NCBI RefSeq assembly: GCF_000002985.6
Contig: NC_003283.11
Location: 8,494,001 to 8,558,000, forward strand
Reading direction: 5' to 3'
DNA length: 64,000 bases
Origin: Caenorhabditis elegans
Lineage: Eukaryota; Nematoda; Chromadorea; Rhabditida; Rhabditidae
Shown here: positions 895 through 42,779 of the stretch, one piece after another
Position numbering within the stretch: position 1 is the stretch's first letter
How the letters are laid out: the number at the start of each line of letters is the position of its first letter
Translations under genes and position numbers: made by a program
Notes under the pieces: generated by a model
Told to the model about the DNA's origin: nothing
Databases searched by the model: none
Seen by the model: the letters and a program-made list of their open reading frames with translations, nothing else

Positions 895-3800
895 ATGAAC
901 TTATATCTCCTCCTACTTGTAATTGCCACGTCATCGTGGCAATTTGTGGCTGGATTGGAGTGTCCCGTGGAATGTACTTGTGATAAGAAGGGACTTGTAG
1001 TGGATTGCAGTAGTTCTGGTAAGCTTTATATATTGTCGAATTATGTTGATTACACCATTTATCTTGAATTCTTATTGTATTTAGACACTGTCACCGTGAC
1101 AGTTTTCCTACCGCGATGATTGTGTGTCCGAATTTTAAGTTTAAAGTTTGTTATACATAAATTAAGAATTATAGAGTAGGGATTGTTAGATAGATTGATC
1201 ATAAATATGTACATGGAAACCAACAGTACAATCGAAAAACGTACATATTGCATGACAAGTACACCAAAAAACTGTTTGGTCTTTGAAACCGGGCAGCCGG
1301 GGCCTCCTTAGCTCAGTTGGTAGAGCGTGAGACTTTTAATCTTAAGGTCAGGGGTTCGAGTCCCCTAGGTGGCTTGATTTTTTGCTCAAAAATTGTATAA
1401 TTTTATGAATGCTTGTTTAATTTGCACTTGAAGCATTTGTTACAGAAGAATATACTGCCTAACCCCAAAATTGCATTACCTATAAAACTGTATTAGTTGA
1501 ATATTTAATTGTTTCATTTTTCAGGCCTCACCAGGATTCCAAAAAATATTTCGCGGAATGTTCGTAGTTTGGTAATTAGGAACAACCGTATTCACAAACT
1601 GAAACGATCTGATTTGGAAGGATTTAATCAGCTTGAAACTCTTGTCCTTACTCATAATAAAATTAAAATAATTGAAGAGGTCAGTTGTTTTTAATTGAGA
1701 TTTAAGATTTTAGTTGGTTACATTTAATTTGGCCGATAGAAATTAAAATCATTTTCAGAATGTTCTTGATCACCTTCCAGAGCTGAAACGTCTTTCATTA
1801 GCTCATAATGAACTGGTTTATATTCCACCACTTTGCTCTGATTCTCGGCCACTAGCATCTCTGAATTTGAAACGAAACCACATTCAATTTATTGACGAGC
1901 AGGTGGGTCATTTGAATCGAAATTGATAAATTAGACATTTTTTAGGTTCTACGTTATTTCCCAGATCTTACACAACTCGATTTTTCACACAATAGAATAC
2001 AGTCGTTACGTACAAAACTTTTCGATAATCTTCCAGCTCTCTCACATGCACATTTACATTCAAATCCTTGGCATTGTGATTGCAGGTATGCAAAAAATTT
2101 CGGTGCCTCATGCTGGAATCGAACCAGCGACCTTCTGTTTACTAGACAGACGCTCTGCCACTGAGCCAATGAGGCGCGGCAGCAACGGATAGAAAACGTA
2201 AGAACGAAACACATGTTTTACAGGGCATCAAAAGTAAAAGCCTTGTTGCAAAAGGTGAAATGGGAGAAAAAAGTATACTGTACAAATCCCGTTGAGCTAC
2301 GTCATCAGGCACTAGATGAGGTCTGTATTAGATAAAAATAAAAATAAGAGTTTAATATTATGTTTTCCAGGTGGACGATTCTGCACTGACCTGTGCTAGA
2401 CCAGCAGAAGAGTCATGGACCGGCGAGGAGATAAAGCTGACATGTGCTAAAAATTCCAGCAGCAAGCTCGTTGTATGGATGTATGAGTGAGTATAACCTT
2501 TGGATCAATAATATTCAAGTTCATATAAAATCACTTTCAGAAATGTCGAGGTCGATTCATCTTCACTGGACGGTTATGAGATACATGATACAGTGATAAC
2601 TGTTCCTCGAAAAACCAATGTCAACTTTATGACATGTACATATGATTTTGATCATATTCCACATCACAGGTAAATTCGGAAGAAAAGGAGTGCGATACTG
2701 AAATTTTAAATATCATCTAGGCTTTCCTGAAATTCCTTATTTTTCATTATTAAGAACCGTTTTTTTAATAAAAATAACTTGATATTCCTTTTTTATTCCA
2801 GACGTCTCCGACAAAGCCAGCATCAAGGAAATGGTTCTCCTCAGTTCACATATAAACCACGGGATAATTCCTTCCGAGAGGGATCAGAAGTTAAAGTAAA
2901 CTGTGAAGTTATGGGAAATCCAAAACCTACAATAAATTGGTATCATAATGGAAAACGGTTCATTTCATCGAGAAAAAGGCAACTTGGTCTATCCAATAAT
3001 GTTCTTCGTATATATCCTTTCTTGGAAGAGGACTCTGGAAGGTATGTGAATATACTCTATCTTTTTTGAACGATTTATATTATTGCGGGAAGTAAAATTG
3101 TCCTATCCTAGTTTGACCCCTAAACTTTTTACAAGATATTCCTTTGAAAGAGCAAGTGTAGATTATATGTGTCAGTTTTGAGCTCTAGAAATGCGCGGGT
3201 TTTAAATTTTCATATCACAAAAGTTTTATAGTGCAACTTTTGTACAAAAACCAATTTTTTACCAAATAGAGAAACTACTACTCGTATATAATCTGAAATT
3301 CAGGTACACATGCGAAGCGGTGAACAGCGTTGGAAAAGTCAGACATGCGTTCTCGTTGGATCTCATAAGCAGTGTACCTCCAAATATTTACGAAGGACCA
3401 CAATCTGTTAGCCAGAATCTTGGAGGATCAGTAAGTTTTCAGTTTTTATTTATAATTAGAAAGTTTAAAATTTAGGTTGTATTCGTCTGCAAAGCCAATG
3501 GAAATCCAGTTCCCGATTACACTTGGTCATTTGATGGAAGTACAATTGGCCATATTAAAGGAAGATTTATGGTATCTGATGATGGAACAGAGCTTCGTAT
3601 ATCAAATATTGAAAAGAAGGATGAAGGATATTATTCTTGTATGGCTGGAAATCCAGTTGGAGCAATGAGTGCTGATGCGAAACTTACTGTAATTGGAGGT
3701 GAAACTAGGAAGGCTGCGGCTCCACAAATTGATGAAGAGCTTCTACGAGCAATTGCTCAAAAAGCAAGACAAAATGTTGAAAATGCTGTGGAGAAGACAA

Positions 3801-6800
3801 GAAAACAATTAACACAAGATAAAGTTACAAATACCAATGATTTGAAAAGACTTTTCCGCTTCTCTACTCCAAAGCAAGCTGTCGAATTGTCAAAAGCCCG
3901 GGAGATTTATGAAGAATCAGTTAGACTAGTTAGAGAACATGTTGAAAAAGGATTAATTCTGAATGTTGATGAGCTTCACCCAAAAAATGTTTCATATGAA
4001 TCAGTGCTTCATGTGACTCATGTTCAAGCTCTCATGGGCCTCAGTGGATGTCATACAGGACAATACAAGAATCCATGTACTGATACGTGTTTCCATCATA
4101 GATACAGGTAATATTAATAGACTATGAGTATTCTATCAAAATAATTGTGGGTCAAAGTAGTTGACAATGTTTGAATTTGAGTTCGAATTTAGAAAATTAA
4201 AGCAATAACCTACCATAAAGAGTAATTTGAAAACTTCTGGTTTAACCAAGAAATAAGAAACTTTCAGTTAATTTTTTTTGGAAAAATCCAGGCAAGATCT
4301 CACGAACGAAACTATATTATTTACAGATCATTCGATGGCCAATGTAATAATAAAAACAAACCAATGACTGGAGTTTCCCTAATGCCACTTCGACGTCTTT
4401 TGAAACCTGTATATGAGAATGGATTCAATACTCCAGTTGGTTGGGAAAAAGGACGACTCTATAATGGATATCCACTTCCAAATGTTCGAGAAGTTTCCAG
4501 ACAACTTGTTGCAACTGAAAATATAACTCCACACTCAAAACTTTCATCAATGGTTATGCAATGGGGACAGTTCGTAGATCATGATCTTACTCATACAGTG
4601 ACAGCTCTTTCGAGACATAGTTATGCTACGGGAGCTTTTTGTAATAGAACTTGTGAGAATTTGGATCCATGTTTCAATATTCCGTTATCACCAAATGATC
4701 CAAGAGTGAAGAGTGGAAGGTGAGAATGCTAAAATTTTAGAATCTAGTTCTCCAACTATAATCAGTTTTCAGTGCCAAGTATCCGTGCATTGAATTTGAA
4801 CGTAGTGCTGCAGTTTGTGGATCAGGAGAAACATCTCTTGTCTTCAATCGAGTTACCTACAGAGAACAGATGAATGCTGTAAGTTTATTTTACTTTTCAT
4901 GATCTTTTCTAATTTTTTGTTCATCACAGGAATCTTATACAATTTCCAGCTAACCTCATTCCTGGATGCATCAAATGTATACGGTAGCAATGAAGTTCAA
5001 GCTCAAGAACTTCGTGACACTTATAATAATAATGGGATGCTCCGATTTGATATCACTTCTGAAGCTGGAAAAGAGTACTTGCCATTTGAGAAAGATTCTA
5101 ATATGGATTGCCGTCGAAACTTTAGTGAAGAGAATCCGATTCGTTGTTTCTTGGCTGGAGATCTTAGAGCAAATGAGCAACTCGCACTTGCTGCAACTCA
5201 CACGATTTTCATTAGAGAACATAATAGAATTGCCAAAAAATTAAAATCGATGAATGGAAATTGGGATGGCGAGATTATTTATCATGAAACGAGAAAAATT
5301 GTTGGAGCTATGATGCAACACATTACCTACAAACATTGGATGCCAATTATTTTTGGAGGACAGGTAAGTTGTCGGATCCACGAGTGAAACACTTACATTG
5401 ATTAATTTTTACTTATAGGCGCAGATGAACAAGTTCGTAGGAACATATCAAGGATACGATCCGGATGTAGATGCATCCGTAACAAATGCTTTTGCTACTG
5501 CAGCTTTCAGGTACAAATTAAACAAGCATTCGCAAAATTTTACAATTTTTGAACAAAAGATCCAGCCACCTAGGGGACTCGAACCCCTGACCTTAAGATT
5601 AAAAGTCTCACGCTCTACCAACTGAGCTAAGGAGGCCCCGGCAGCCCGGTTTCAAAGACCAAACAGTTTTTTGGTACTTGTCATGCAATATGTACGTTTT
5701 TCAATTGTACTGTTGGTTTCCATGTACATGCATATTTATGATCAATCTATCTAACAATCTCTCTATCTCAAAAATTCCAAATGTACATAATTATAAATTT
5801 AAGATTCGGCCATACAATCATCAACCCATCTTTATTCCGTCTTGGAAATGATTTCATGCCAATTAAAGAAGGGCATATTGCTCTTCATAAAGCATTTTTC
5901 ACCCCTGAATTGGTTCTGACACAAGGAGGCGTTGACCCCCTTCTACGTGGATTATTCGCAAGTCCACTGAAACATCCGATGCCAACTCAACTACTAAATA
6001 TGGAGTTAATTGAGAAATTATTTATGAAAGGCCACGAGGTTGGTTTGATGATTGGAAAATCATCATTGAAATCTGAAATGATGAACATTTTAAACCGGAA
6101 ATGAATGAAATTTCAGGTATCATTGGATTTGGCAGTCATGAATATTCAAAGATCCAGAGATCACGGATTACCGAGGTTTGAACGGAAATTGAATTGGACT
6201 TTCAGAACAATGAAAATTTAATTTTCAGTTACACAGAATATCGAAAATTCTGTAATCTTCCAGTTCCGGTTCAATGGGAAGATATGAAAGGATACATAAA
6301 AGATGACATGATTATTCAAAAACTTCGAGGATTATACGGTGTTCCACGTATGTTTCTGAAATTAGACAATTCTATTTTAATAATTTTTCTTAAAAATCTG
6401 GTATCTCACTGTCGTATTACAAATATCTCTTCAATTGCGCTTTCCTAACCCTACAAGTGGGCGGAGTCATCGGTCACACAAGAGACAATGGTTGGCGAAA
6501 CCCGACTCATGTCGGCCACTCAGATGACGACCCTTTTATAAGCGACTGCAAACACACTTAGCGACGACGCTTTGGCGAGCGCAATGAATGTTTAACCATC
6601 TTTCGGCTGAATCCATGATGCCAATTTTCAAAATACTGAGCGCATGAAATGAAAATTTTGACTAATTTCATAAGTTTTGCACATTCAGAAAACATTGACT
6701 TGTGGGTCGGAGGAATTGTCGAGGAGAAGTTGGAGAATGGGTTGTTCGGTCCCACTTTTGCATGTATTATTGGCGAACAATTCAGGAAAATTAGAGATGG

Positions 6801-38465: not shown

Positions 38466-38662
38466 TCGATAATGAATTGCCTCTGAAAACATTCTACAAC
38501 AATAAAAATTAGAATCCCAGTTTGATAGAACAAGTACATAAAAATGTTTATTTTCTGAATGTGTGTTTGATGAATCGCCACAATACAAAACTGAATACCA
38601 GTTTGATGAATATAATCGAAATTATACGAATATTTGCATTGATAAAGGATTTTCACAAATGT

Positions 38663-38678
38663 GGCCCTAAAGAGGGCC
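38663..38678 (-). terminator. Histone 3' stem-loop of H2B
   Basis: On the minus strand, downstream of the H2B stop: six-base stem GGCCCT/AGGGCC with loop CTTT, flanked by AACCCAAC and ACA. This is the metazoan replication-dependent histone 3'-end signal bound by stem-loop binding protein (CDL-1 in C. elegans). Confidence 0.95.
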
Positions 38679-38714
38679 GTTGGGTTCGGTGATTTGCTTT
38701 CAGCAATTGAATGC

Positions 38715-39086
38715 TTACTTGCTAGAGGTGTACTTGGTGACAGCCTTGGTTCCCTCGGAGACGGCGTGCTTGGCAAGCTCTCCTGGAAGAATCAAACGGA
38801 CGGCAGTTTGAATTTCGCGAGAAGAGATGGTGGATCTCTTGTTGTAGTGAGCAAGACGAGATGCTTCAGCAGCGATACGCTCGAAGACGTCGTTGACGAA
38901 AGAGTTCATGATGGACATAGCCTTGGAAGAGACTCCAGTGTCTGGATGAACCTGCTTGAGCACACGGTAGATGTACACGGAGTAGGATTCTTTACGGGCA
39001 TGACGTCTCTTCTTTCCGTCCTTTGGCTTGGTGACGGTCTTGGCGGCTTTCTTTGCTCCTTTAGCAGACGGCTTTGGTGGGGCCAT
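38715..39086 (-). CDS. his-8: Histone H2B
   Basis: Intronless, 123 aa, full length. It has a basic N-terminal tail ([16 protein letters not shown]...[12 protein letters not shown]) and the histone-fold residues [19 protein letters not shown] and [20 protein letters not shown], ending in AVTKYTSSK. It packs with H2A in the nucleosome core. It is transcribed divergently from H2A (39379) across a 292-bp shared promoter and ends in the canonical 3' stem-loop, so it is a replication-dependent S-phase gene. The symbol comes from my recollection that the F45F2 cluster carries his-5 to his-8. The protein is not unique to this locus, so the exact symbol is less certain than the identity. Confidence 0.95.
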
Positions 39087-42011: not shown

Positions 42012-42302
42012 CAAAAATTAATATCTGACTTAAAATGAACTTTTTGAAAATGTTTCTTCGGGGATTTGTTTCAAATTTAAAGCGATTTCAGAATTTAATT
42101 ACAAAATTTTTCTAGGTGACAGAAGCTTCCAGTACAATCAAAAAAACTGACCTACAGGTATATAAATGACCACATTTTTTTATTGGGAGATTTACTAAAT
42201 TATCATATTTACAAAAATTAATATCTCACTTAAAATGAACTTTTTTGAAAATGTTTCTTCGGGGATTTGTTTCAAATTTAAAGCGCTTTCAGAATTTAAT
42301 TA
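42012..42302 (+). repeat. Direct repeat of about 90 bp, two copies
   Basis: 42012-42101 and 42212-42302 match almost base for base: three substitutions or single-base indels (CTGACT versus CTCACT, one extra T, AGCGAT versus AGCGCT). About 110 bp of unrelated sequence separates them. They lie between the heat-shock-element array and the truncated H2B. Confidence 0.9.
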
Positions 42303-42437
42303 TCGAATGTCCTATGAATTGTTGCAAAATCTTTGTTTTTCGTCTTTTTAGAGAAATCTGAAAATGCTCTCATTATCTCCATACTCCAATTTTTTAAATT
42401 TAAATTTAAGAAATATTTGACCCCTAACTTTTTACAT

Positions 42438-42716
42438 AAAGAATCCTACTCCTTGTACATCTTCCGTGTGCTCAAGCAGGTTCATCCAGACACTGGAGTC
42501 TCTTCCAAGGCTATGTCCATCATGAACTCGTTCGTCAACGACGTCTTCGAGCGTATCGCTGCTGAGGCATCTCGTCTTGCTCACTACAACAAGAGATCCA
42601 CCATCTCTTCTCGCGAAATTCAAACTGCCGTCCGTTTGATTCTTCCAGGAGAGCTTGCCAAGAACGCCGTCTCTGAGGGAACCAATGCTGTCACCAAGTA
42701 CACCTCTAGCAAGTAA
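42438..42716 (+). pseudogene. his-39: Truncated H2B copy lacking the N-terminal tail
   Basis: Homology to H2B begins abruptly at residue 32 (KESYS) and continues to the stop. It differs from the neighbouring H2B by only four residues (V-to-L, Y-to-F, H-to-N, K-to-N). There is no ATG at the junction; the frame stays open upstream for about 100 nt but that part is unrelated AT-rich sequence with no H2B resemblance. The 3' flank also matches the H2B gene at 38715 beyond the stem-loop, so it was probably copied from that gene. It could be transcribed as a tail-less H2B from a non-histone promoter, but it lacks the TATA box and basic tail. His-39 is my recollection of a single extra H2B-like locus here. 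Confidence 0.75.
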
Positions 42717-42752
42717 GCATTCAATTGCTGAAAGCAAATCACCGAACCCAAC

Positions 42753-42768
42753 GGCCCTCTTTAGAGCC
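42753..42768 (+). terminator. Mutated histone 3' stem-loop of the truncated H2B
   Basis: Stem reads GGCCCT/AGAGCC. One G-to-A change breaks a pair that is intact in the four full-length genes of the cluster. The AACCCAAC flank is kept. Confidence 0.9.
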
Positions 42769-42779
42769 ACAAATGTACT

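Follow-up and report, generated by a model that had tools for sequence, protein, structure and literature searches.

The window, a 64-kb stretch of Caenorhabditis elegans DNA, carries from position 895 onward an LRR-Ig-haem peroxidase gene that we take to be pxn-1, presumably the gene also named ZK994.3. Our gene model comprises the first 17 exons and 16 introns and stops short of the 3' end. The spliced product of these exons is open over 1107 amino acids and contains LRR, Ig and animal haem peroxidase domains, by which the predicted protein is a peroxidasin. An exon 2 from 1525 and an intron at 5511-5803, as proposed in the initial annotation, hold in this model with its open frame across all 17 exons. 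Intron 1 (506 nt) and intron 14 (293 nt) are the longest two of the 16 modelled introns. A pxn-1 null mutant has been reported to be superficially wild-type and to suppress pxn-2 (PMC5887144).

Results

Introns 1 and 14 had been claimed to contain an inverted repeat, and this is borne out by both a repeat search and a gapped alignment (Table 1). The repeat search returned inverted arms at 1263-1432 and 5506-5675 (170 nt, 95%) and further arms at 1187-1269 and 5667-5749 (83 nt, 84%), plus shorter colinear pieces. Gapped alignment of 1115-1455 with 5467-5822 yielded 332 aligned columns with 26 mismatches and 7 gap events, the arms measuring 341 nt in intron 1 and 356 nt around intron 14. The initial annotation had placed them at 1180-1425 and 5511-5760; this core is present, but the arms exceed both intervals on each side. 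Their description as near-identical is confirmed by 9 mismatches in 243 columns within 5511-5757, an interval close to the arm proposed earlier.

Table 1. Features of the pxn-1 locus and of the inverted repeat, in window coordinates
Feature	Position	Strand	Basis or detail
Exon 1 of pxn-1	895-1018	+	gene model
Intron 1 of pxn-1, host of the arm read as derived	1019-1524	+	GT-AG, open frame across splice
Arm read as derived: inverted partial exon 14 - intron 14 - partial exon 15	1115-1455	+	alignment to reverse complement of 5467-5822
Putative antisense relic of the exon 15 start	1115-1133	-	17/19 to 5804-5822
Predicted tRNA-Lys(UUU) gene on the pxn-1 sense strand, T6 run downstream	1302-1374	+	ARAGORN, Rfam RF00005
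Putative antisense relic of exon 14	1431-1455	-	21/25 to 5467-5491
Exon 2 of pxn-1	from 1525	+	gene model
Exon 14 of pxn-1	5419-5510	+	gene model
Arm read as source: exon 14 end, whole intron 14, exon 15 start	5467-5822	-	alignment, gene model
Intron 14 of pxn-1	5511-5803	+	gene model
Predicted tRNA-Lys(UUU) gene on the pxn-1 antisense strand, T4 run downstream	5564-5636	-	ARAGORN, Rfam RF00005
Low-divergence tRNA 5' flank; with the tRNA, probable conversion tract	5637-5757	-	2/117 mismatches

The genome (100,286,401 bases) was searched with each flank outside the tRNA, scoring the best candidates only, and just these two places were returned. The second place had E values of 1.4e-12 and 1.6e-46, which excludes a chance origin of the repeat, and we rejected a source elsewhere in the genome on the strength of the same searches. 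A tRNA-Lys locus at X:5.45 Mb has a short related 5' flank, yet it was absent from the output, so the search misses short kin. With this short flank excepted, there are two similar copies in opposite orientation and none elsewhere outside the tRNA.

Both arms had been said to carry the same tRNA-Lys. ARAGORN indeed predicts tRNA-Lys(ttt) at 1301-1375 (+) and 5563-5637 (-), and the two tRNA-Lys(UUU) genes are identical over 73/73 positions, each scoring 69.7 bits against Rfam RF00005. Both copies have an intact cloverleaf and a T-run terminator, as expected of functional tRNA-Lys genes. Throughout the genome, tRNA-Lys(UUU) is found at about 15 places; the same 73 nt occur in 14 of these 15 and 71/73 are shared by the remaining one. 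The 5' flanks, compared without gaps, show 6-14 identities over 30 positions in 12 of the 13 other loci, 11 of which nevertheless have the identical tRNA, and 20/30 at the X:5.45 Mb locus.

Short antisense matches to exons 15 and 14 terminate the intron-1 arm on either side, in the order and orientation expected for these exons. The exon 15 match scored 28 against a maximum of 27 among 5000 dinucleotide shuffles, with 14/19 at the next best ungapped place within the window; the exon 14 match scored 30 against a maximum of 28, with 17/25 at the next best place. We thus ruled out chance for both relics, each of which beats all 5000 shuffles, by a margin of just 1-2 points. The intron-1 copy lacks 16 nt near the end of exon 14, seen as a gap in the alignment. 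Since relics of both exons end the intron-1 arm, the copied unit appears to be exon 14 - intron 14 - exon 15. In pxn-1, exons 14 and 15 together encode the peptide AAFRFGH. The same place reads RFGH in six and RFAH in one of the seven other peroxidase loci found, and this conservation in 7/7 loci argues that the coding sequence is ancestral and the version in intron 1 derived. The exon relics thus mark one copy as derived, and the sequences strongly indicate that copying proceeded from the intron 14 region to intron 1. At the borders of the copy we found neither a target-site duplication nor clear microhomology; in about 30 nt on either side, the longest common word was 4 nt.

Divergence between the arms is uneven. 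In source coordinates, mismatches amount to 2/19 in the exon 15 portion, 10/42 in the block at the end of intron 14, 0/73 in the tRNA, 7/53 in the tRNA 3' flank and 5/28 in the exon 14 portion. The 5' flank of the tRNA, with 2/117, differs from the 3' flank (Fisher P 0.0044) and from the 12/61 further out (Fisher P 5.8e-5). With the tRNA left out, a 117-column window holding at most 2 of the 26 mismatches arose in a fraction of 0.00055 of 20,000 permutations, a post hoc value, the data themselves having set the window length; for the longest run free of mismatches, 59 columns, the permutation P was 0.021. Low divergence is thus clustered within more diverged flanks.

Dating the duplication from arm identity, as had been suggested, proved feasible in rough terms. 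The Jukes-Cantor distance is 0.20 over the two outer intron blocks (17/95). At a mutation rate of 2-3e-9 per generation, this corresponds to tens of millions of generations. Such an age exceeds the diversity within the species, so that by this rough estimate the duplication should be fixed.

The arms were further claimed to be able to pair once transcribed. Cofolding of the two introns agrees with this and predicts a gain of about -294 kcal/mol, in an equilibrium model of two separate strands that includes neither kinetics nor proteins. In this model, the donor of intron 14 at exon 14 has a mean probability of 0.88 of pairing with intron 1, and its acceptor at exon 15 one of 1.0, versus 0.45 and 0.44 when exon 14 - intron 14 - exon 15 is folded alone. 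The acceptor of intron 1 at exon 2 is predicted to lie mostly outside the duplex (0.32 over the last 20 nt). Complementary sequence is therefore present in both introns flanking exons 2-14, but of the two sites that back-splicing would use beside the duplex, the modelled donor is largely paired and the acceptor mostly free. Among the transitions between the arms, 7 retain a wobble pair and 7 break pairing. This is no excess of pairing-keeping substitutions and hence no sign of selection for pairing, which we accordingly rejected.

The window contains two loci with inverted arms of at least 60 nt within 10 kb (four segments). The second one lies in a histone cluster, at 38655-38994 and 42437-42776 (97%). 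Six sampled 10-kb stretches, a small sample, gave no kb-spaced pair and a single inverted one, which forms a hairpin around a 14-nt loop, and a 9.9-kb stretch with pxn-2 held no inverted arms. Elsewhere in the genome, inverted pairs that we chose by eye among the matches listed involve tRNA-Ile and tRNA-Lys(CUU), the latter with arms of 126 nt and 94% identity, 4.9 kb apart.

Discussion

The repeat in pxn-1 is a local inverted duplication that carries a tRNA gene, a feature fairly ordinary in kind. We consider it very likely that a local inverted duplication, a tolerated tRNA copy, subsequent decay and probable conversion together account for it. About 356 bp of pxn-1, comprising the end of exon 14, intron 14 with its antisense tRNA-Lys and the start of exon 15, would have been copied in inverted orientation and would have landed about 4 kb upstream, within the gene's own intron 1. 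Here the copy would have been tolerated and would have brought a second tRNA-Lys(UUU) gene. Afterwards, the exon relics and the outer intron parts would have decayed, and the tRNA with its 5' flank, about 190 bp, was probably homogenised through gene conversion between the arms. Against this account, the relics, of just 19 and 25 nt, exceed the best shuffle so narrowly; alignment is poor in the block that joins exon 15 to the conserved flank, with 11 gap columns in addition to its 10/42 mismatches; and the borders of the copy lack a target-site duplication or clear microhomology.

The uneven divergence of the arms suggests the conversion step, which we regard as probable on moderate grounds. 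The repeat had also been proposed to invert the 4 kb between its arms by recombination; the recombination part of this proposal is indirectly supported, as such unevenness fits gene conversion between the arms. Conversion tracts in Caenorhabditis are reported to be mostly 50-200 nt long and to occur also between inverted neighbours, but the same source warns that the distribution of identical bases alone is an unsafe basis for inferring conversion (PMC3966223). Alternatively, the 5' flank could have diverged little because purifying selection acts there, either on an unrecognised RNA or on a Pol III control element. The low-divergence block does adjoin the tRNA, and the X:5.45 Mb locus offers one related 5' flank. 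However, the flank does not seem to be generally required, as 12 of the 13 other tRNA-Lys loci have dissimilar 5' flanks, nearly all of them with the identical tRNA. Selection of this kind is thus the less probable explanation, though one to be taken seriously.

A circular RNA of exons 2-14 had been predicted from the arms. Pairing would drive back-splicing from exon 14 to exon 2 and give a circle of 2785 nt, the total length of these exons. In favour of this idea, both flanking introns, which are also the longest ones modelled, contain a long near-perfect complement with a large predicted duplex gain. Moreover, all six C. elegans circRNAs tested in PMC8330042 are described there as abolished or strongly reduced by deleting one reverse complementary match. 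However, back-splicing needs the donor of exon 14, which the modelled duplex pairs, and would thereby be hindered. Reverse complementary matches in worms are reported to promote both back-splicing and skipping (PMC8330042); here, exon skipping would likewise be hindered because it needs the acceptor of intron 14, which is paired in the model too. This occlusion is an argument rather than a proof, since the match in glr-2 extends to the 3' splice site and the circle still forms (PMC8330042). Also, 13 exons are at the upper end of the published range, worm circRNAs having 1-13 exons, most commonly 2, and at least 5 in 6.6% of 1166 cases (PMC5753478). The substitutions show no surplus that would favour pairing, and intron 1 may already have been removed by the time transcription reaches intron 14, about 4 kb downstream. 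Among the papers searched, none named pxn-1 together with circRNA in its text, and none mentioned ZK994.3. The prediction is thus not supported, and a circRNA arising from the pxn-1 arms is unlikely, with a slight chance at best.

Pairing of the arms could also have the opposite consequence. If both splice sites of intron 14 were masked, the repeat would reduce correct splicing of pxn-1 and thereby tune the level of PXN-1. The donor and acceptor do become more paired with intron 1 present than in the region folded alone, but these values come from a two-strand equilibrium model, and the even split of transitions speaks against this reading as well. We judge it to be just as improbable as the circle. 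Still more doubtful is an extended version, in which the derived arm would be a built-in antisense to intron 14 that masks its splice sites whenever removal of intron 1 is delayed, thereby limiting functional PXN-1, with recombination around the shared tRNA-Lys keeping the arms alike. We weakly infer that the repeat has no role at the RNA level. An assembly or collapsed-repeat artefact, for which we found no supporting point, is practically ruled out by the mismatches and gap events that distinguish the arms and by the position of both arms within a gene of continuous reading frame.

The local inverted duplication with probable later conversion resembles several known systems. In C. elegans, most very young duplicates on the same chromosome lie next to each other in opposite orientation (Katju and Lynch 2003, as cited in PMC4546093). 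Like the local inverted gene duplicates described in PMC4546093, the pxn-1 repeat combines a shared chromosome, short distance, opposite orientation and a partial copy. What sets it apart is that the copy sits in an intron of the very gene from which it derives and contains exon fragments and a tRNA gene instead of a protein gene. As in the reverse complementary matches reported to flank C. elegans circRNAs (PMC8330042, PMC5753478), long complements lie in two introns; in pxn-1, by contrast, the match extends across both splice sites of the downstream intron, 13 exons lie in between, and a circRNA is no more than predicted. With interlocus gene conversion as described for Caenorhabditis (PMC3966223), the locus shares a low-divergence tract of about 190 bp, more diverged ends and close inverted copies. 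Unlike the paralogs described there, the putative tract joins intronic copies holding a tRNA gene, and it is deduced from one genome. The other inverted tRNA pairs of this genome likewise have the same tRNA in opposite orientation, about 0.6-5 kb apart, but their arms of 81, 89 and 126 nt are, among the matches listed, shorter than those of pxn-1.

The locus provides a small, clear case in which exon relics reveal which way a local inverted duplication was copied, and a tRNA gene would have multiplied here as a passenger of its host intron. It also calls for caution: long complementarity between introns does not suffice to predict a circRNA, and the opposite effect is possible where the complementary match crosses splice sites.

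As a further observation, intron 14 interrupts the Arg codon of RFGH, and none of the seven other peroxidase loci found has an intron at the RFGH/RFAH position. In nematodes, intron losses are reported to far outnumber gains (PMC9169325).

An intron at the position of pxn-1 intron 14, the host of a tRNA-Lys(UUU) gene, is absent from all seven other peroxidase loci that we found in the genome. In pxn-1 itself, this intron (window 5511-5803) splits one codon of the RFGH peroxidase motif. Among 13 other tRNA-Lys(UUU) loci, a related 5' flank (20/30) was detected only at L024 on the X chromosome, and this locus is possibly kin of the intron-14 tRNA from before the duplication. A tRNA-Thr gene in intron 4 brings the total of intronic tRNA genes in pxn-1 to three.

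Inverted repeats were also observed at one other place in the window and elsewhere in the genome (see table). The arrangement of a tRNA-Lys(CUU) pair at another locus, L038, resembles that of the inverted tRNA pair of pxn-1, and the base-rate sample of six 10-kb genome stretches contained a hairpin on the chromosome V contig. The second long inverted repeat of the window lies within a histone gene cluster, and involves an H2B gene and an inverted H2B-like copy lacking the normal N-terminal tail. The start of the open frame of this copy falls in unrelated upstream sequence.

Coordinates of repeats and genes in the window and at other loci
Feature	Position	Strand	Properties
tRNA-Thr (AGT)	window 2102-2175	antisense to pxn-1	intron of 138 nt; T6 run downstream
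Inverted repeat, histone cluster	window 38655-38994 / 42437-42776		340 nt, 97%
H2B gene	window 38715-39086	-	
Direct repeat	window 42041-42101 / 42242-42302		61 nt, 98% identity, 201 nt apart; next to H2B-like copy
Related tRNA-Lys(UUU) flank	L024 reverse complement, about 985-1115 (X:5.45 Mb)		
tRNA-Lys(CUU) inverted pair	L038 698-823 / 5744-5869		arms 126 nt, 94%, 4.9 kb apart
Hairpin	L044 4046-4223 / 4238-4415 (C5 near 10.004 Mb)		arms 178 nt, 97%; loop 14 nt
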